Position numbers and translations under genes: made by a program | Shown here: piece after piece, positions 3,886 through 56,819 of the stretch | Position numbering within the stretch: position 1 is the first letter of the stretch | Layout of the letters: each line of letters begins with the position of its first letter | Notes under the pieces: generated by a model | The model's database searches: none | Seen by the model: the letters and a program-made list of their open reading frames with translations, nothing else | Told to the model about the DNA's origin: nothing | Source of the DNA: Nitrospinaceae bacterium | GTDB lineage: Bacteria; Nitrospinota; Nitrospinia; Nitrospinales; Nitrospinaceae | Reading direction: 5' to 3' | DNA length: 64,000 bases | NCBI GenBank assembly: GCA_029261535.1 | Contig: JAJDBF010000010.1 | Coordinates: 1-64,000 of the forward strand

Positions 3886-5907
3886 GTGGACTCTTATTTT
3901 CAAAGCGGCGTCAAATTGGTTGGGACCTTGAAGGTAAAGGGCACCGTCCATTTTGAGGGTGAAATTGAAGGCGAAATCATTGCCACCGATCACCTCATTA
4001 TCGGAGCTAAAGGTCGTGTCGAAGGAGATATCAAGACCTTTGATATCACCAACCTTGGCTGGGTAACGGGAAATATTGTGGCTGAGCACAAGGTATCTCT
4101 GGCCAGTGGCAGTCGCCTGGAGGGGGATATCCTGACCCACCATCTGGTCGTCGAGGAAGGCAGTCGCTTTGAAGGCAGTTGCCAGATGCGCGAAGGGGCC
4201 GGAACCCGTGAGACCACTGTGCCTGCCTCGGCACTGGCTCAATCCGTCTCTATTCAGGAGAGTCTGGTCGATGAAATAAATGAAACAGCAGGTCCCAGCC
4301 CCCTGGCAGATGTCCCGAAAAGAAAACCACGCCGATTAAGCAGACCCGTTGCCGCCGCTGTTATTTTTATTTTGATTGGTGCTGGGTGGCACTACTACCC
4401 AAAATACTTTGGTGAATCCATTGAACTGCATATCAATCGCGGCCAGACCCTCATGGCACAGAAACGATACTCCGATGCGGAAATGGAATTCCGCAAAGCA
4501 CTAAAGATTTCACGTAATAATTCAAAGGTTTATGCAGGCTTAGGTGATGTTTACCTTCAAAAGAAAGAGTACAACGAAGCGCTTACTCAATTTCAACGAT
4601 CCATTGAACTCGAACCTTCAACCACGTCCAACCATATTAAACTGGCCAAGGCCTACACCGCCAAGGGAAAGTTTAACGAAGCCGTGAAGGTGTATCAGGC
4701 GGCGTTGGATCTGGACCCCAAAAACCATTTAGCCTTTTTCGATATGGGGCAATTGCGGTTGAAGGAAGGCAAAGTCGAGGAAGGCATCGGGCACCTGAAA
4801 ATGGCGGCCAAGTTAAAGCCGGATTTTTATCAAGCTTTCAAGATTTTGGCCCTGTTGTATTCTGAGGAAGGCAAACTCGAACTGGCATTGGATCAGGTTT
4901 CCCAGGCGATCAAGGCCAAGGACGATGAACCCGATCTGTTTTTGCTCCAGGGGGAATTGCTGATCAAGGCAGGTAAAGAAAAGGAAGCGGTCAAGGCCTT
5001 CAAACGAGTCACTGAATTGTATCCGCAAAATTTCAAGGCGCAATTAAAGCTCGCTGACTGGTATTTTGAAACAGGTGCGCTGGATCAATCGCTGGTGTCT
5101 TATCAACTGGCAGAAAAATTAAAGCCGCAGGACCCACGAGTGCAGGCGCGTCTTGGAAAGATATATCTCGATCGAAATGATTCTGAAAATGCACTGGTAG
5201 CTTTTGTCAAGGCTGTCAAGCTGGACCCTAAGTTTGCTGACGGGCATTATCAGGTTGGTAAGCTTCAGGCCTCTGAAAATAATCTGGAAGATGCCAGAGT
5301 ATCTCTTGAAACGGCGCTTGCCCTGAATGATTTGCTGGCACCCGCTCATTATGAATTGAGCCGGGTGCTCTTCATGCAAAGGCAATTTAATGAGGCCCTC
5401 AAGCACATCAAACTTGCGACAAAACTCGATTCAAAGTCGATGGATTTCAAATTACAAAATGCAAGGACGCTGGTTGAAGTCAAGCAATACGATCCCGCAG
5501 TTAAGCTACTTGCAACCCTGGTCCGAAACCAACCGGACAACGGCCCGGCTCAATTTGAGCTGTGCAACGCTTATAGGAAAAAAGGATATTATACGGTCGC
5601 TATCCGTTATTGCGAGAAGAGTCTGAAGTTGATGACCAAAGATATTGATGCCATGAACCTCCTGGCTTGGTTGTATGCCAAAAAGAAAGTCAAACTGAAT
5701 AAAGGTTTGACCCTTTCGCAAAAAACGATAAAAGCTTTTCCTAAAAAGCCGGAATATTTAGAAACCCTGTCTCAAATTTATTTTGCAAAGGGGAAAAAAG
5801 ATCAAGCCGTTGAAATGATTTCCAAAGCGATTGAAATCGCTCCCAACTCTAAATATTATAAACAGCAGTTATGGAAGTTCAAAAATGTAGCGGCACCTGC
5901 CGGTTAA
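3886..5907 (+). CDS. Bactofilin-TM-TPR fusion protein
   Basis: Protein of 673 residues combining three parts. Residues about 6-101 are a bactofilin (DUF583) beta-helix, with repeated short strands such as GTVHFEGEIEGEIIA and GRVEGDIK. A basic linker and one membrane segment (about 153-170) follow. From about 185 to the end are many tetratricopeptide repeats, for example LYSEEGKLELALDQVSQAIK. Bactofilins polymerise into cytoskeletal scaffolds. With the bactofilin cytoplasmic, the TPR part would be periplasmic, which is unusual. The start is GTG with no clear Shine-Dalgarno; the protein begins directly at the beta-helix, so it is likely close to correct. It converges on the antiporter gene, the stop codons lying almost back to back. 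Confidence 0.85.
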   Translation: MDSYFQSGVKLVGTLKVKGTVHFEGEIEGEIIATDHLIIGAKGRVEGDIKTFDITNLGWVTGNIVAEHKVSLASGSRLEGDILTHHLVVEEGSRFEGSCQMREGAGTRETTVPASALAQSVSIQESLVDEINETAGPSPLADVPKRKPRRLSRPVAAAVIFILIGAGWHYYPKYFGESIELHINRGQTLMAQKRYSDAEMEFRKALKISRNNSKVYAGLGDVYLQKKEYNEALTQFQRSIELEPSTTSNHIKLAKAYTAKGKFNEAVKVYQAALDLDPKNHLAFFDMGQLRLKEGKVEEGIGHLKMAAKLKPDFYQAFKILALLYSEEGKLELALDQVSQAIKAKDDEPDLFLLQGELLIKAGKEKEAVKAFKRVTELYPQNFKAQLKLADWYFETGALDQSLVSYQLAEKLKPQDPRVQARLGKIYLDRNDSENALVAFVKAVKLDPKFADGHYQVGKLQASENNLEDARVSLETALALNDLLAPAHYELSRVLFMQRQFNEALKHIKLATKLDSKSMDFKLQNARTLVEVKQYDPAVKLLATLVRNQPDNGPAQFELCNAYRKKGYYTVAIRYCEKSLKLMTKDIDAMNLLAWLYAKKKVKLNKGLTLSQKTIKAFPKKPEYLETLSQIYFAKGKKDQAVEMISKAIEIAPNSKYYKQQLWKFKNVAAPAG

Positions 5908-12873: not shown

Positions 12874-13725
12874 TCAATCGAATATAGTATTTTTTACATC
12901 AGCACCTTTGGTGTTAGCTTTGGCGTGATTGGAATCGATGAAGTAGGCATTTTTTAGATTAGAACCGGACAGGTTGGTTCCGTGAAGATTGGCTTCGAGT
13001 AAAAACGCATTTTCCAGATTCGCCCCTTCCAGATTGGCGTAGGTCAGGTCGGCTCCTTCAAAGTTTGTTTCTACCATCTTGGCCCCTTTGCAGAAAGCGT
13101 CTTTGAATTCACAGCCAATGAGAATGGCATTCGATAAATCCGCATCGTTGAGTGTGCTCGAGTTAAAGTCGGAGTATTTCAAGGTCGAGCCTTTGAGGTC
13201 GATACCCTCCATCCTGGAAAAGCTGAAATCGGCGCCACGGGCATTTAGCCCCGTCATCTGGCATTTTTCCACTTCAATCGATTTTGCGAAAACGTACATC
13301 ATACGGGCAAAGGCAAAATCGGTTTCGATGATTTTGGAATGGTACAGGTTCGAATGATTCAGGTTGCAACCCCGAAGGTCACACATTCGTAATGTTGAGC
13401 CGGAGAATATGGACTTCTCAAGATTGGAGTTGCGGAAGCTACAGTTCACGAGCATGGCATCTTCAAAGTTTGAATTGCGTAAGTCGGTATTTGCGAAATT
13501 CACATTCTTCAACCTTGCATTGCGAAATGTCGTGTTATGCAGGTTGGCTTCAGAGAAATTGATGTCGGTCAATTCGGCGTTATCGAAGGTGATCTCATTT
13601 AGAACCGCGAATATAAACGAGGTCCCACTCAGGCTGATTCCAGTCAGGTCGTACTCGTGAAAATTGACCCCATCCTGAGTGGGGTTTTTCAGGGCCTGAT
13701 TGAGAACTTCTTCGACCTGGGACAT
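12874..13725 (-). CDS. Pentapeptide-repeat protein
   Basis: Protein of 283 residues that is almost wholly pentapeptide repeats (A-D/N-L-X-X pattern), e.g. FEGADLTYANLEGANLENA, from about residue 20 to the end. Such proteins fold as a right-handed quadrilateral beta-helix. No signal peptide or membrane segment is seen. It is the last gene of a four-gene operon; its ATG overlaps the stop of the MotA-like gene by one base (TAATG), which implies translational coupling. Some members mimic DNA and protect gyrase, but the tight link to a motor-type ion channel suggests instead a scaffold role. Function unknown. Confidence 0.85.
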   Translation of the reverse strand: MSQVEEVLNQALKNPTQDGVNFHEYDLTGISLSGTSFIFAVLNEITFDNAELTDINFSEANLHNTTFRNARLKNVNFANTDLRNSNFEDAMLVNCSFRNSNLEKSIFSGSTLRMCDLRGCNLNHSNLYHSKIIETDFAFARMMYVFAKSIEVEKCQMTGLNARGADFSFSRMEGIDLKGSTLKYSDFNSSTLNDADLSNAILIGCEFKDAFCKGAKMVETNFEGADLTYANLEGANLENAFLLEANLHGTNLSGSNLKNAYFIDSNHAKANTKGADVKNTIFD

Positions 13726-14549
13726 TATTTCTGGTGGTCTGGTGGAAGCAGGGCGTTCATGCTTCGCCGGATTTTTTGAGGATTGACCCGATCATGAATC
13801 CCCATGACCCCGACGCGGATGGCCTTCAGTAGCATAGTCTCGTTTTCTGTGCGGGTGTTCAGTTTGGCTACCAGGGGGATAATGAGCAAGTTGGCCAACA
13901 TGATGCCATAAAAAGTTGTGATAAGGGCGGTGGCGAGCCCGGAGCCAATCTGGCTTGGATCTTCAAGTTTAGAGAGCATCTGGATCAATCCAATGAGGGT
14001 GCCGGCCATTCCAAAAACGGGGGCCTGCACCGCCATGAATCGGAGGATTTTCTGCCCACCGTTGTGTCTCTCTACCAGAGCTTGCATTTCACGTTCCATG
14101 ATTTCCTGAATTTCTCGGGTATTGTAGCCATCGACAATCATGGAAACGCCGGACCTGAGAAAACGGTTGTTGAGAAATTCTTCTTCAGATTCCAGCCGCT
14201 TCATCCCGCCGGTCCGGTATTTGGAGGACAGAGCCATGATGACATCCACGTAATCGGCGGGTTTATGGACATCCGGTTTGTAAGCATTGATAATGACGGG
14301 AATCATCCCCAGGATTTTTTGTGAAGAAAACGCGATAAATGCAGTGGTGACGGTTCCTCCAAAAACAATGAGGCCCGACGGAATACTCCAGAACAGCCCC
14401 ACATCTCCCTGGTATAGGATGGCTCCAAAAATAAGCAGGAAGCCGAACAGAGTCCCAAGAATGGTCCCCATGTCCACAACATTTTGCTGTGGTGTGGCAT
14501 CAATCGCCTGTTGGCTGAGTTCTTCCTGAGTTTTGATGGCGGTGGCCAT
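13725..14549 (-). CDS. motA: MotA/PomA-type stator channel subunit
   Basis: Inner-membrane proton- or sodium-channel subunit of 274 residues, MotA/ExbB family. Four membrane segments are visible: about 26-46, 52-72, 172-192 and 205-225 in the PVFGMAGTLIGLIQML and LATALITTFYGIMLANLLIIPLV region. The first pair carries FGGTVTTAFIAF, matching the PomA/MotA pattern. The cytoplasmic loop is MotA-like, including RFLRSGVSMIVDGYNTREIQ. A good Shine-Dalgarno (GGAG) precedes ATG. The MotB-like partner is two genes upstream, with a class I adenylate cyclase between. No flagellar genes are in view, so use as a flagellar stator is possible but not shown. Confidence 0.9.
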   Translation of the reverse strand: MATAIKTQEELSQQAIDATPQQNVVDMGTILGTLFGFLLIFGAILYQGDVGLFWSIPSGLIVFGGTVTTAFIAFSSQKILGMIPVIINAYKPDVHKPADYVDVIMALSSKYRTGGMKRLESEEEFLNNRFLRSGVSMIVDGYNTREIQEIMEREMQALVERHNGGQKILRFMAVQAPVFGMAGTLIGLIQMLSKLEDPSQIGSGLATALITTFYGIMLANLLIIPLVAKLNTRTENETMLLKAIRVGVMGIHDRVNPQKIRRSMNALLPPDHQK

Positions 14550-14583
14550 TGAGCTCCAAAGTTAAGTTAGGCGTTGAGCCTAG

Positions 14584-16665
14584 TCATGTCTTTAACCCGG
14601 TTGAGCGATCCCGTGTACGAACCCGTAGAGACTTTAAAATATAACTAGTTAGCCAAGAGAGGCCCAGTACATCTCTGCGGCTACCGGGGATAAAAACCTT
14701 AAGGAAATCTTCCCGGTCGGCTTCAATTTCCCGGACTTGCGGACCCAGCTCTTTAATGACCCGATGCATGCAGTTGAGGCCGCCATAGTTTTTGCAGAAC
14801 AATTCCCCCCAGGATGTGAGGTAAATCGCTGTCACCCTTTTTAACCTGCCCACTCTATTATTGATGAATTCGCTGTATTCAACCGGTGTCTGGCATTCCT
14901 TTATATTCCCCTTGAGAACTTCTATTGGAATTGGGTTTCCAAAATCAAGAATCATAAAGAACTGTTTAATATAAGCGTCAATGAGTAGCTGTTCATTAGG
15001 GATATTAGCAACATCGACCTGCGAGAGATAGCTGGATAACTCTTGCAGAATACTCCTCAGGTCAAAATCCTTGATGGATTGTTGCTGTTCAGACCTCAAG
15101 AGCAGAACGGTTTCTGGTTTGAATAGATTGTTGAAACAAGTGAAAGCCAGCAAAAAAGGCAACGTTGTGGCTTTTTTGATGATATTTTCTTTGGGAATCT
15201 GCTCCAGGAAAGCCCGAGATTTTCCTCGAATCAGAAACCATTCCCCTTTATCTCTGGGGTCCTTCTGATTGAAAAGAAATGTGAGTTCCTTTTCCCCTGT
15301 TTCTCCATCAATGAGAGCAAACAGGCTTTCTACTTTGCTGTTGGATTTGCTAAAAAAACTGAATAATTTTCGACCCAGAAGATGAGTGTCTCGCTCCGTG
15401 ATGAGCGATTTTCCTTCTTCCAGCATTTTATTTTTTTCAGAAATCATTTTGTAGGAGTTCACCAGAATTTTATTGATCCTGTCACCCAGTGCCACCTTTT
15501 GCATCATTTGCCAGTTGATATAATTATTGAGGTGATCCAAACGGGTTCCGGGCCAGTCCCATTTCTTGATGAGGTCAACCAGAATGCGTTTTTTCTGATC
15601 CCGGTTTCTGCGATCCAGGTCATCAGTCGTGACCTGGGTTCCAACTTTTATATAAAAAGCAGTGCGCAGGGCATCCAGTTCATTGAATCCTTTTTCTTCC
15701 TTGAAAAATGCTTCTGATCTTAAAAACAGGGCAAGATAAGGATCGATTTCTTCAAACGACTCCTGGGAAAAAACCTGCTTTTTAATATCGTGGCACAGCA
15801 GGTGAAACCGGGTTTCGCGAAACATGTACTCCTCAAGCAGTCCCATTTTGATGAGTGTCTTGAACGGGGACTTGAAAGACTTGATCAATGCCCAGATGGA
15901 ACCTCCAAAAAACTCTCCCTCAGAAATATCCTCCACATTACCGATGTCGACAAACTCATCCGGGTTGAGCAAGGTCTGGTGATTCCGAATAATATTACAG
16001 GCTTCATCGTACTGGAGGTCAGAGGTTTCCAGTGGCATGATCCACCAAAAAGGAATTTTGCCGGCGACGATAACCAGGGACCGGTACATTTCTTCCTTCA
16101 GCAGTTTGGCCAGGGCTGACCCGGTACTCTCACTGTCACTTTCCCCAAAAATATTCTGTTTGACTTCCTCGATATCGTTAACAAAAAAATGGATTTCAAG
16201 GCGGTATTGTTCCCAGACCCATTCTTCAATACGGCACAATTTTTTTGAGAACAGGTCGAGTTGTTCTTTAGAGACATCATCCTTGTGAACCAGCAAGGTA
16301 TAGTCCAAATCAGATTTCTGGGTGTGTGCGATGGATCCGATACTTCCCATCAAAAGAACAGTTTGAATAAAGGGCTTGAGTTCGGCATTGCGCCGGATAA
16401 TTTTTTCGGGAAACAATTCCTCGGCGGTGAACATTATCTCCGGCGTGAGAACGTAATTGGAGATTCCCTGTGGCACGTTACCGGAAAGATAACCGGGCAA
16501 TCCCTCTTGATTAGAGTGAAGAAGCCTTGGGATGAGGGTGAAAACGCGTCTGTCCTGAAAAGCCAGAATTTCATTTATCCGGTCCAGTTTGAATCGGTTA
16601 TACCGGATAAATAACTGTCGATTAGTAAACAGCTGATTTGAAAGACTGGACTTTCCTTCCGTCAT
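14584..16665 (-). CDS. Class I adenylate cyclase (CyaA-like)
   Basis: Predicted to make cAMP from ATP in the cytoplasm. The N-terminal part aligns by eye to E. coli CyaA: residues 40-70 include FTLIPRLLHSNQEGLPGYL and GNVPQGISNY; the nucleotidyltransferase core has LLMGSIGSIAHTQKSDLDY (about 104-122), where G107-S108 and the D119/D121 pair match the catalytic GS...SDLD motif. Later parts (EIHFFVNDIEEVKQNIFGES, EEMYRSLVIVAGKIPFWWIMP) also match. At 693 residues it is shorter than the about 848 of E. coli, mainly at the C-terminus, where the regulatory region lies. It sits 34 bases upstream of motA and 91 downstream of the motB-like gene. No Crp-type regulator is nearby. Confidence 0.88.
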   Translation of the reverse strand: MTEGKSSLSNQLFTNRQLFIRYNRFKLDRINEILAFQDRRVFTLIPRLLHSNQEGLPGYLSGNVPQGISNYVLTPEIMFTAEELFPEKIIRRNAELKPFIQTVLLMGSIGSIAHTQKSDLDYTLLVHKDDVSKEQLDLFSKKLCRIEEWVWEQYRLEIHFFVNDIEEVKQNIFGESDSESTGSALAKLLKEEMYRSLVIVAGKIPFWWIMPLETSDLQYDEACNIIRNHQTLLNPDEFVDIGNVEDISEGEFFGGSIWALIKSFKSPFKTLIKMGLLEEYMFRETRFHLLCHDIKKQVFSQESFEEIDPYLALFLRSEAFFKEEKGFNELDALRTAFYIKVGTQVTTDDLDRRNRDQKKRILVDLIKKWDWPGTRLDHLNNYINWQMMQKVALGDRINKILVNSYKMISEKNKMLEEGKSLITERDTHLLGRKLFSFFSKSNSKVESLFALIDGETGEKELTFLFNQKDPRDKGEWFLIRGKSRAFLEQIPKENIIKKATTLPFLLAFTCFNNLFKPETVLLLRSEQQQSIKDFDLRSILQELSSYLSQVDVANIPNEQLLIDAYIKQFFMILDFGNPIPIEVLKGNIKECQTPVEYSEFINNRVGRLKRVTAIYLTSWGELFCKNYGGLNCMHRVIKELGPQVREIEADREDFLKVFIPGSRRDVLGLSWLTSYILKSLRVRTRDRSTGLKT

Positions 16666-16756
16666 AAGGACCCCGCGTAATGTGAATGTTTTGATTATAA
16701 AGGGAGAGTCAGGAAATCGACAATTTAAAAATCCGGGAAAGCGGAAGGGAGAGACG

Positions 16757-18331
16757 TCATTTTTCTTCCGCTTCTTTTAAAGCCTCCAGTTCAGCGGGTG
16801 TTTTGCCAAAAGCCTGGCTGGCTTTCTTGATTCGGTCCGCCCCGATTTTTAATCCCTGCTTGCCCGCCTCTTCCTTCACCACATCCTTGTCCTTGACCAG
16901 AACAACTTCCACCCGGCGGTTTTGAGCGCGAGCGTCATCGCCTTTTGAGTTATCGATTTTGGGGCGGAATTCGCCAAATCCCGTTACCGCCACTTTTTCC
17001 GGAGGAATATTGAGCTTGTCGATCATAACCCGCGCCACACGTGCGGCCCGGGCGGCGGATAATTCCCAATTGGAGGCATAAACACCGCCACCGCGCAAAG
17101 GCACGTCATCGGTATGTCCCTGCACCATGACTTCTTTTAATCCTTCCAGGTATTGGTCGCCAATGGCGCCAATGATTTTGACATCCGCGCCTTCGACTAG
17201 TGTGGCCGACCCCGGAGAGAAAAATTCATCGGATTTTAGAGCGATATGAAGGGTGGCTCGGTTCCCGGGAATAAAAGTTTCATAGCGCGCCTGATGCTTT
17301 TCAGATTCCTTCTTTATCCAACTCAGCATCTCCCATTCTTTCTGAGTCAGGTAATAGTTTTTTCTGTCGATTCTGACTTTGCGGTCCTGCCAGGATGAAG
17401 TGACATCGAACAGTTTTTGCGCGTCGATGCGAGAGACGGACACCATCAGGATGAATACCGCCAGTAGCAGGGTGATCATGTCCGAATAAGTAATGAGAAA
17501 GCCTTCCAGGCCGGAAGAAAATTCGGCGGTTGCCTGCGCCCGACTTTCAACACCCATACGATGTTCCATTTTTTCTGATTTGTCCTTTTCCTCATTAATA
17601 GACATTTTCATTTCGAGCTGGGCGATGTAGTCCTGAAGCTTATCGAGCTCAGTGACCATTTTCTTTCTTTCTTCCAACAGTTCGTTGAGTTCCATTTTCA
17701 AGTCAAGAATAATTTCAGAGGGCAACATACCTTCCTCGCCCGGCTCAACACTTCCATAGAGCATTTTCTCGTAATTTTCGATCAAATCATCTTTCTCGCG
17801 TAACAGCCGTTCGATTTCCTTGGTGGGCTTGCCGGATCGTTTGGACAAGTCGGCCTTCAATTGACCAATTTGAGTGTTTAAACCCTCAAGATTGTCCTGA
17901 TCTTTACGCAGACGTTTAAGCTCTTTGAGCAGGAGAGATTTGTCCTTTTGATTTTTATCGTTGACCAGCCTTTCTTCCTGGATACGTTCCTTGAGATGGG
18001 TTTCCCGTTCTTTTAGGCGCTCGAATTTTTCCAGAAGAGCTGGGTCCTGGGCGATGGCTTCGGGGGTAGGTTCTTCTACGACTTTAACAGGTTCCTTTTT
18101 ACCGGAATGGCGAGCAATACGAGCCGCCCACGCCTGCGACTGGGCTTCCCTGATTTGCTCGTCCTTGGACTCAATATCCTTAAACATTTCCTGAATTTTT
18201 TTTCTATTCAGGGTGAGGATGGCCTGGATCTTCTCGTTGAGTTGAAACTTTTCTTTTTCCAGCCTCTTCAGCTCATTCGATTTGATCTTTAACCGCTCTT
18301 TAACGAGCTGTATGTTCTCTGATGTATCCAT
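16757..18331 (-). CDS. MotB/OmpA-type protein with long N-terminal coiled coil
   Basis: Protein of 524 residues. Residues about 5-260 are charged coiled coil with a short Pro-rich break near 75-97. A single membrane segment (about 278-299) reads FLITYSDMITLLLAVFILMV and keeps the essential MotB ion-path aspartate, D284. The periplasmic part holds an OmpA/MotB peptidoglycan-binding domain (about 355-480) with VMVQGHTDDVPLRGGGVYAS, NWELSAARAARVARVMID and FGEFRP. In ordinary MotB only a few dozen residues precede the membrane segment, so about 277 residues of cytoplasmic coiled coil is exceptional. It is the first gene of the operon with a class I adenylate cyclase, MotA and a pentapeptide protein. 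Confidence 0.9.
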   Translation of the reverse strand: MDTSENIQLVKERLKIKSNELKRLEKEKFQLNEKIQAILTLNRKKIQEMFKDIESKDEQIREAQSQAWAARIARHSGKKEPVKVVEEPTPEAIAQDPALLEKFERLKERETHLKERIQEERLVNDKNQKDKSLLLKELKRLRKDQDNLEGLNTQIGQLKADLSKRSGKPTKEIERLLREKDDLIENYEKMLYGSVEPGEEGMLPSEIILDLKMELNELLEERKKMVTELDKLQDYIAQLEMKMSINEEKDKSEKMEHRMGVESRAQATAEFSSGLEGFLITYSDMITLLLAVFILMVSVSRIDAQKLFDVTSSWQDRKVRIDRKNYYLTQKEWEMLSWIKKESEKHQARYETFIPGNRATLHIALKSDEFFSPGSATLVEGADVKIIGAIGDQYLEGLKEVMVQGHTDDVPLRGGGVYASNWELSAARAARVARVMIDKLNIPPEKVAVTGFGEFRPKIDNSKGDDARAQNRRVEVVLVKDKDVVKEEAGKQGLKIGADRIKKASQAFGKTPAELEALKEAEEK

Positions 18332-53978: not shown

Positions 53979-56819
53979 CTAGACGATACAAACTGCCATG
54001 ACCTGCTTCAGGTCGCAATCCCCTTTGAAAATTTTCATGATGCCATCCTGCTTGAGGGTGGTCATGCCATCGCCGATGGCCTGCTTTCTGAGCTCCTCAA
54101 CCAGGGACTGTTTCATGACCATGCGTTTGATCTCATCGGTCCCCTCCAGTAATTCATGGAGCCCGGTTCTTCCCGCATACCCTGTATTGCTACAGTGATC
54201 ACATCCCACGGGTTTTTTGAGAAGCAAGCTGTTGGAGTATTCGATCCCGACATTTCCCTTGAACTCTTCTTCACTGCCATACTCATGGACCAGCGTATCG
54301 TATTCATCGCGATCAGGATGATAATCCTCTTTACATTTTTTGCAAAGTGTTCGCACAAGACGCTGGGCCAAGATGAGCAAAAGCGCATCGGCGAAATTTA
54401 GTGGATTCATTCCCATGTCCAGCAGACGGGTGATGGTTTCGGGGGCGGAGTTTGTGTGCAGGGTACTGAATACAAGATGACCGGTGAGGGAAGCTTCAAG
54501 GCCAATGGAACAGGTATCCGCATCGCGCATTTCACCGACCATGATGACATCGGGATCGGCACGGAGAAAAGCTTTCATCGCCCGGGCAAAATTGAGCCCG
54601 ATCTTGGGATGCATCTGCACCTGGCGCAAACCACGTTGAGTGATTTCCACCGGATCCTCGGCAGTCCAGATTTTGCGTTCCGGTTTATTGATGTAGCCTA
54701 AAGTTGAGTGTAGCGTGGTGGTTTTACCCGACCCGGTGGGACCCACAACAAGAATGAGCCCGTAAGGTTTGGAAGCCATGCGCTGGATCAAATCCAGATT
54801 CTGAGGGGCAAAGTTCATTCCCTCAAGCGGAATCGGTTTACTGGCCGCGAGGATACGCAACACGGCATCTTCGTTACCACCAACGGTTGGGCAAGTCGCA
54901 ACGCGATATTCAATTTCCTTGCGCCCGTATTTCATTTTGATTTTACCGTCCTGCGGCATTCGCCGCTCGGCAATATCCAGTTTGGACATGATCTTGATAC
55001 GTGACAAGATGGCCTGTTTGTATAACGGCGGAATTTCCTGATAAATTTTACAGGTACCGTCCTTGCGGTAACGAACCACCATGTTGTCCTTACCCACTCC
55101 CGGTTCAAGATGGATATCTGATATTCCCTGGTCGTAAGCATCGATCAAAATTTTATTAACCAATTTGATGATGGTGTTATCCGCTTCATTGATGGCGTTG
55201 AAATCATCGGCATCTTCCGAGATCGTTTCAACACCATCGTCTTTTTCACTTTGCAATGCATCAAGCAGAGAAGACATCTCACCAATCCCGGCACCTTCTT
55301 CCGGCTCTTCATCAATTATATCGTCAGCCAAGGTTCCCGTCAGGAAATCGTGGATATCAGCCTTGAGAGAAACCCGAAACTCCAAATCATGTTTGGCGAA
55401 AATCAATTTGATACTTTGGATTTTATCCTGATTGAGAGGGTTATCGATGAGGATGACAACCTTTTTACCCTCTTTTGAAATCGGCACCCATGTGTTTTTT
55501 TGCAGAAAGTTGAGATTTAAACCTTCAAATAAAGAGGATGGAAGCACCGTTCCCTGCTCATATTCAACGTAGGAAACGCCATAAAAATTTTCCAGTGACG
55601 CTCCGAGGTCTTTCCTGGATATTTTTAGTTCGCCGAGCAACAGTTGTTCGATATCGATTTGGTTACGACGAGCCTTGCCGATAGCCTGATTGAGCTCGGT
55701 ATCGGACAGAATGCCGTGATTGAGCAGATAAGAAAACTTCGTCGGCTTTTGCTGAACAAATTTTGTCTGGTTGAAAAATGCCAGGCCGATCGTTTCTGCA
55801 ATTGAGATGGCATTTTTCTCATCAGCACTGCTGAAAGGAGCTCCGGCATTTTTGTTGACCAACTGCAGGACACCCATGAGTTTGTTCTTGTTCATCATGG
55901 GAACGACCAGCATGTTCTGCGTTTTAAAACCTGATTTTTTATCCCAGGAACTGTCGAATGAAAGCTCTGGATGAAAAGCCTGCAACTCTTTTTGATCGTA
56001 GACATTTTTTATAACGACTGACTTTTGCGCCATCGCCACACAGCCGGCAATACTTTGGGGTGCAATAGGCACCCGGATTTCATTAACCGTGTCTCCCGTT
56101 TTCATCTTGGAATATATTTCGTTTTTCGGGTGGTCCACAGCATAAATTGTCATTAACTGCGTTGAGAATAATTCCAGGATGGAGGGTTTCAATTCGATAA
56201 GGATTTCATCGACATTTTTGGCGGAATGAATCGCATTGACAATGGATACCATTTTTTCCTGCGTGTTTTCTCCCCCACTGGACCCGGCACCATTCCCCGC
56301 TTCGCCCAGTTTGGTGACCATCAATCCCAAAGGAACCGATAATTCTTTGGCCGTTTTAAGGTCCTCATCGGAAAACTTTCCGTCCCCTCGCTTGTTGATG
56401 ATTTGAATCACTCCCACCAGTTTTTTATTGTGGGCAAGAGGGGCGACGATAAGAGACTTTGTGGTGAAATTCGCCTGACCATCCAGTGCCGAGCCAAGGT
56501 CCATGTTGGGGTTGTACATGGCAAGTTCTGCCTTGGAATTCACGTCCGAAATATTGAGTGCCTTGCCACTGGTGACCACATGCCCCACAATAGTTTTTGG
56601 CGACAGGTCCAGCCGGATTTCCCCGATATCATTGCCTAAGTGGTTTCGGGACACCAGTTGCTTGGTAGAACGATCAAGAGAAAAAAGAATGAGTGCCTCG
56701 GAATCGAATAATTCCTTAAGGTCACTAATTATATTGGGCACCACTGTAGAAAGATCGCTGGCAGAGTTAATTTGGGAGGCCAGGGCTTTGACTTTTTCGC
56801 CCGTTGTCATGGTTGCCAT
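53979..56819 (-). CDS. GAF-GAF-MshEN-PilB/GspE ATPase
   Basis: Assembly ATPase of 946 residues with a long N-terminal extension. Two GAF domains (about 28-170 and 205-350; each with VAPLAHNKKLVGVIQIIN-like and VVPMMNKNKLMGVLQLVN signatures), then an MshEN/T2SSE N domain (about 363-495), an acidic linker, and the GspE/PilB catalytic part. Walker A GPTGSGKT (G693-T701), Walker B DPDVIMVGEMRD (755-766), His box SLTGHLVFSTLHTN, and zinc Cys pairs C826/C829 and C873/C876. It would power pilus extension or secretion, gated by GAF ligands. It lies alone here. Confidence 0.93.
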   Translation of the reverse strand: MATMTTGEKVKALASQINSASDLSTVVPNIISDLKELFDSEALILFSLDRSTKQLVSRNHLGNDIGEIRLDLSPKTIVGHVVTSGKALNISDVNSKAELAMYNPNMDLGSALDGQANFTTKSLIVAPLAHNKKLVGVIQIINKRGDGKFSDEDLKTAKELSVPLGLMVTKLGEAGNGAGSSGGENTQEKMVSIVNAIHSAKNVDEILIELKPSILELFSTQLMTIYAVDHPKNEIYSKMKTGDTVNEIRVPIAPQSIAGCVAMAQKSVVIKNVYDQKELQAFHPELSFDSSWDKKSGFKTQNMLVVPMMNKNKLMGVLQLVNKNAGAPFSSADEKNAISIAETIGLAFFNQTKFVQQKPTKFSYLLNHGILSDTELNQAIGKARRNQIDIEQLLLGELKISRKDLGASLENFYGVSYVEYEQGTVLPSSLFEGLNLNFLQKNTWVPISKEGKKVVILIDNPLNQDKIQSIKLIFAKHDLEFRVSLKADIHDFLTGTLADDIIDEEPEEGAGIGEMSSLLDALQSEKDDGVETISEDADDFNAINEADNTIIKLVNKILIDAYDQGISDIHLEPGVGKDNMVVRYRKDGTCKIYQEIPPLYKQAILSRIKIMSKLDIAERRMPQDGKIKMKYGRKEIEYRVATCPTVGGNEDAVLRILAASKPIPLEGMNFAPQNLDLIQRMASKPYGLILVVGPTGSGKTTTLHSTLGYINKPERKIWTAEDPVEITQRGLRQVQMHPKIGLNFARAMKAFLRADPDVIMVGEMRDADTCSIGLEASLTGHLVFSTLHTNSAPETITRLLDMGMNPLNFADALLLILAQRLVRTLCKKCKEDYHPDRDEYDTLVHEYGSEEEFKGNVGIEYSNSLLLKKPVGCDHCSNTGYAGRTGLHELLEGTDEIKRMVMKQSLVEELRKQAIGDGMTTLKQDGIMKIFKGDCDLKQVMAVCIV

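Follow-up and report, generated by a model that had tools for sequence, protein, structure and literature searches.

It has long been asked how load on the flagellum, or contact with a surface, is turned into a nucleotide signal. In Pseudomonas aeruginosa, stopping rotation on surfaces requires both cAMP and the MotAB stator (PMC6855561). Bd1971 of Bdellovibrio is an EAL phosphodiesterase activated by cAMP (PMC6717892), and in another case a class I cyclase raises sodium-driven motility (PMC13079933). These cases are precedents for a motility-linked cAMP module. Stators themselves are usually encoded by directly adjacent A and B genes (PMC12505986). For PomAB, the sodium-driven stator of Vibrio, PomA residues R88, E96 and D114 are indispensable for contact with FliG, and T158, T185 and T186 form the Na+ triad (PMC10374538). 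The anti-phage system Zorya (ZorAB; PMC11890865) likewise has at its core a MotAB-like motor, one that carries a long rod in the cytoplasm.

The locus described here lies in a 64,000-nucleotide stretch of DNA from a Nitrospinaceae bacterium (contig JAJDBF010000010.1), referred to as the window. It contains four minus-strand genes, and a candidate promoter inside the cluster.

16757..18331, minus strand: motB-like gene, B subunit of stator 1 (524 aa; Pfam MotB_plug 6e-12, OmpA 5e-13)
14584..16665, minus strand: class I adenylate cyclase (693 aa; Pfam Adenyl_cycl_N 1e-47, Adenylate_cycl 4e-62)
13725..14549, minus strand: motA-like gene, A subunit of stator 1 (274 aa; Pfam MotA_ExbB 3e-28)
12874..13725, minus strand: pentapeptide-repeat protein (283 aa; Pfam Pentapeptide 1e-46)
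16694..16723, minus strand: possible internal promoter before the cyclase (TTGTCG-18-TATAAT, 10/12 matches; weak evidence)

The gene order is motB-cyclase-motA-pentapeptide. The usual arrangement, motB directly downstream of motA, is not obligatory and is not found here. The motB-cyclase gap is 91 bases and the cyclase-motA gap 34 bases, and motA overlaps the pentapeptide gene by 1 base (-1). The coordinates, order and junctions in the initial annotation were reproduced, and Pfam agrees with all four identities that it had assigned. It also knew of no described system with this composition. Our literature search, with subscription papers outside its coverage, returned neither the four-gene composition nor a pentapeptide-cyclase fusion.

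Stator 1 is probably a real flagellar stator unit, with sodium-type ion use predicted, since the channel aspartate, the FliG-contact charges and the threonine triad are all kept. MotB1 comprises a cytoplasmic helical extension of ~255 residues, a transmembrane (TM) segment with D284, and an OmpA-type peptidoglycan-binding domain (PF00691, E 4.5e-13). D284, the channel aspartate, which the initial annotation had singled out as essential, is invariant across 26 orthologues. An AF2 model of MotB1 (pLDDT 70, pTM 0.32), which supports long helices and is silent on the dimer, has helices at 3-75, 97-165, 171-192 and 204-257, a TM helix at 266-299 and an OmpA fold at 358-481. The extension includes a conserved non-coil stretch at ~193-215 (GEEGMLPSEII; mean column identity 0.72). 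Among solved structures, PomA is the closest relative of MotA1. R88, E96 and D114 of PomA correspond to R112, E120 and D140 of the window MotA, and T158, T185 and T186 to T184, T211 and T212. Two lesser charges of PomA, K89 and R232, are not conserved (T113 and Q258). The genome also encodes a flagellum: a single cluster contains FliF, FliG, FliI and a rod protein. It has three MotB_plug matches and six MotA/ExbB matches, three of them paired with MotB genes. The presence of three MotB genes rules out the window stator as the flagellum's only one.

A MotAB-type motor beside a nucleotide cyclase could instead represent a Zorya-like or other anti-phage system with the cyclase as effector. MotB1 does match ZorB models, through its TM and OmpA parts, and Zorya, too, is built on a MotAB-like core whose cytoplasmic rod is long (PMC11890865). 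However, MotA, the cyclase and the pentapeptide protein match no defence model. The rod is here on the B subunit, not on A, the residues for FliG contact are kept in MotA, and the locus keeps one syntenic position instead of having a patchy distribution. A defence identity was therefore rejected, there being no tailed ZorA with effectors, and we regard this explanation as extremely improbable.

The cyclase belongs to class I, with both Pfam domains and the DxD motif (D119, D121). These two residues, together with G107 and S108, are invariant in 36 sequences. The catalytic residues are intact and cAMP synthesis is predicted. Compared with the Pfam model of the family, its C-terminal part is shorter (profile matched to 416 of 601), and a sequence search of the PDB with the class I cyclase found no solved relative. 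The pentapeptide protein is ~283 aa long in nearly all orthologues. A gyrase-protecting protein of the Qnr/MfpA type was considered for it and rejected, with scores far below curated cut-offs.

On Desulfobacterota-type contigs, pentapeptide repeats and class I cyclase occur fused in one polypeptide, and 22/22 scanned ORFs match both families. The fusions are usually ~1,290-1,320 aa and begin with a helical part, HEAT-scoring in 1/6 scanned. In a model of one fusion, a pentapeptide solenoid is joined to the cyclase by a helical linker; a Foldseek search with this model gave convincing matches to pentapeptide structures only. Their fusion supports a joint function well. Since pentapeptide repeats are information-poor, it is no proof that the two pentapeptide parts share descent. 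It points to an unrecognised partner of class I, the best-known class of bacterial cyclases. Examples from Desulfobacterota-type genomes include L231:5991-9860, L219:5964-9929 and L186:1122-5045, among others.

We compared 77 genomes of the phylum Nitrospinota, many of them incomplete MAGs. Close relatives of the cyclase (47-86% identical) are limited to one order, Nitrospinales. Cyclases of other Nitrospinota are ~31-35% identical and have unrelated neighbours; one of these, at L055:4634-10069, lies near V-type ATPase-subunit-like genes (by eye). The arrangement motB-cyclase-motA-pentapeptide recurs in four families of Nitrospinales. The co-occurrence expected by the initial annotation was borne out, with all four genes on one contig in 33 Nitrospinales loci, 32 in the same order and 1 rearranged. 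Median gaps are 116 bases (motB-cyclase), 27 bases (cyclase-motA) and 6 bases (motA-pentapeptide); one outlier of 400 bases (L073) is an ORF-picking artefact, and the pentapeptide gene adjoins motA there. In the rearranged locus (L033:6664-13253), the cyclase and pentapeptide gene are preceded by MotA together with a pair of divergent long MotB genes, so the association is kept despite rearrangement. Within Nitrospinales, the four genes are genuinely linked as a conserved cluster.

A similar MotA-cyclase-pentapeptide set at L034:1352-5619 has an IS3-like transposase as its neighbour; it could be a second copy or a contaminant. The variant MotA of G031/G043b, tested as an independently acquired stator, gave an AU p of 0.11. 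The G043 copy of this variant, which could be contamination, comes from a contig of 5.6 kb.

The stator is not a constant member of the cluster. In the genera g2, g3 and g15 and the genome G033, the cyclase and pentapeptide genes lie side by side with no adjacent motA or motB, which indicates that the cyclase does not require stator input. Both g2 and g3 belong to the same family as the window. On the cyclase tree the stator absences require at least 3 changes; g15 branches first, and the absence there may be ancestral. FliG and other MotB genes are kept in most genomes without the adjacent stator, so lacking the window-type stator does not amount to losing the flagellum. From these genera and the 22 fusions, the pentapeptide protein appears to be the oldest partner of the cyclase.

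The four genes could owe their position to accident, with stator genes landing around an old cyclase-pentapeptide pair and slow change in gene order keeping them there. The flanking genes (ampG-like, alpha/beta hydrolase, response regulator, FGE-like and alr) are as syntenic as the four genes, so conserved order alone is modest evidence, and the unrelated neighbours of outgroup Nitrospinota cyclases fit this explanation too. Intergenic gaps near zero on one strand and the link kept in the rearranged locus argue against it. The initial annotation had treated scattered homologues as a sign of an accidental link. Within Nitrospinales they are not dispersed, but outside the order the cyclase is alone or fused to pentapeptide repeats.

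Stators 2 and 3 of the same genome also bear on this question. Stator 2 (L146:8061-12970, contig C12) adjoins a cNMP-PAS-GGDEF-EAL protein and a PilZ protein, the former in the window's family and the latter across the order. The extensions of MotB1 and MotB2 are homologous (E 7e-23 to 5e-37 for 7/8 MotB2 sequences; shuffles 0.9 or worse). Stator 3 (L147:9006-11972, contig C25), whose MotB is short, lies next to a response regulator that carries an HD_5 (HD-GYP-like) domain, an arrangement conserved in the order. The genome has ~40 second-messenger genes among an estimated ~3,000. With such genes so few, chance placement of 3/3 stators beside them is unlikely, crudely 1e-4 for categories chosen post hoc. 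Taking both sides together, we think an accidental neighbourhood quite improbable. In G048, G049 (95% complete) and G060, FliG is found with no MotB_plug match, which reflects either gaps in the data or motors that have no recognised stator.

The same genome (G000, ~95% complete) has 15 cNMP-domain matches with the phosphate-binding arginine kept. They include three cNMP-PAS-GGDEF-EAL enzymes and two cNMP histidine kinases. A search for a CRP-type receptor found no HTH_Crp_2 match over cut-off in this genome. Judged from these domains, cAMP probably acts there through c-di-GMP enzymes rather than CRP. Elsewhere in the window, 53979-56819 encodes a PilB-like ATPase of GAF-MshEN-T2SSE architecture, its MshEN domain being of the c-di-GMP-binding type, and 3886-5907 encodes a protein that combines a bactofilin domain with a long array of TPRs.

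We infer that the four genes form one transcript. A TTGACA-18-TAAAAT-like site lies ~110 bases before motB in many genera. Sites with at least 10/12 matches precede motB in 64% of 28 gaps, compared with 10.5% in shuffles; these counts are consensus matching, not proof, and shared ancestry of the gaps inflates them. Such sites occur in 15% of motB-cyclase gaps versus 5% in shuffles, and the internal site is not conserved in position across the order. In the window region, promoter-like and terminator-like sites are no more numerous than in shuffles. The best site upstream of motB in the window genome has only 7/12 matches, against 10/12 before the cyclase, so the cyclase may have its own promoter there. 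The initial annotation had taken separate promoters as a mark of an accidental link. The best-conserved promoter-like site precedes motB and, as stated above, homologues are not dispersed within the order, so the refutation that it had proposed did not succeed.

A shared operon could also mean co-regulation only, raising motility and cAMP together without any stator protein contacting or gating the cyclase. The single conserved promoter-like site before motB fits this explanation, as do the several genera with cyclase but without stator. Presence of cyclase and FliG is associated within the order as well (46/4/6/8, p = 2e-4, relatedness and completeness uncontrolled). The cyclase being placed inside the motB-motA pair, and the MotB stretch conserved at ~193-215, hint, weakly, at more than timing. 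We consider co-regulation alone a genuine possibility, if a somewhat doubtful one.

The best explanation, to which we give even credence, is a motility-linked cAMP module that feeds into c-di-GMP control, and in which an accessory stator, probably sodium-type, is co-transcribed with a cyclase-pentapeptide pair. Its basis in the cluster is the order-wide linkage with tight junctions, the cyclase splitting motB from motA, motA lying between the cyclase and pentapeptide genes, the conserved promoter-like site before motB and the rearranged L033 locus. The encoded flagellum, intact stator and cyclase residues, cyclase-pentapeptide fusions, MotB1/MotB2 homology, stators 2 and 3 beside second-messenger genes, and cNMP domains without a CRP-type HTH point the same way. 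Cyclase-pentapeptide pairs without an adjacent stator and the high general synteny count against it. In the proposed module, the class I cyclase and pentapeptide protein would form the core, to which the accessory stator belongs in most lineages. The pentapeptide protein would scaffold or regulate the cyclase. Its cAMP would be read by cNMP-domain proteins, including the three cNMP-PAS-GGDEF-EAL enzymes, and not by CRP, and would set c-di-GMP and hence motility via PilZ proteins. Candidate routes from stator to cAMP are engagement, load or sodium flow acting through the MotB coil, or matched expression.

The gene cluster suggests, but does not prove, a link between motor state and cAMP signalling. 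In its most direct form, the MotB coil would carry the cyclase and its pentapeptide partner, and engagement, load or sodium flow would directly gate cAMP synthesis. The initial annotation had likewise suggested that ion flow or wall contact could set cAMP production, or that the coil could hold the cyclase at the membrane. We consider direct gating unlikely; if true, the flagellar motor unit would itself be a second-messenger source. With a cyclase inside a stator cluster, the conversion of load or surface contact into a nucleotide signal becomes open to a direct genetic test.

The module resembles several known systems in part. Zorya ZorAB likewise combines a MotAB-like motor and a long rod in the cytoplasm, but its rod is on ZorA rather than MotB and its effector is absent here. 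The window MotA is closest to PomA, and the channel aspartate, the R88/E96/D114 equivalents and the threonine triad of PomAB are kept. Unlike PomAB, the window stator lacks the K89 and R232 equivalents, has a 255-residue extension on MotB, and has its A and B genes split by a cyclase. The window cyclase shares both Pfam domains and the DxD motif with CyaA, the class I enzyme of enterobacteria. It differs in its shorter C-terminal part, its place in a stator cluster, its pentapeptide partner and a genome in which no HTH-type CRP was found. In P. aeruginosa, cAMP and one particular stator of the MotAB/MotCD pair also control the stop of rotation at surfaces; the link there runs via FlhF and FimV, and no stator operon with a cyclase is described. 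Bd1971 and the protein that neighbours stator 2 both combine a cNMP domain with a c-di-GMP enzyme. The stator 2 neighbour, whose cAMP binding is predicted, differs in adding PAS and GGDEF domains and in adjoining a stator.
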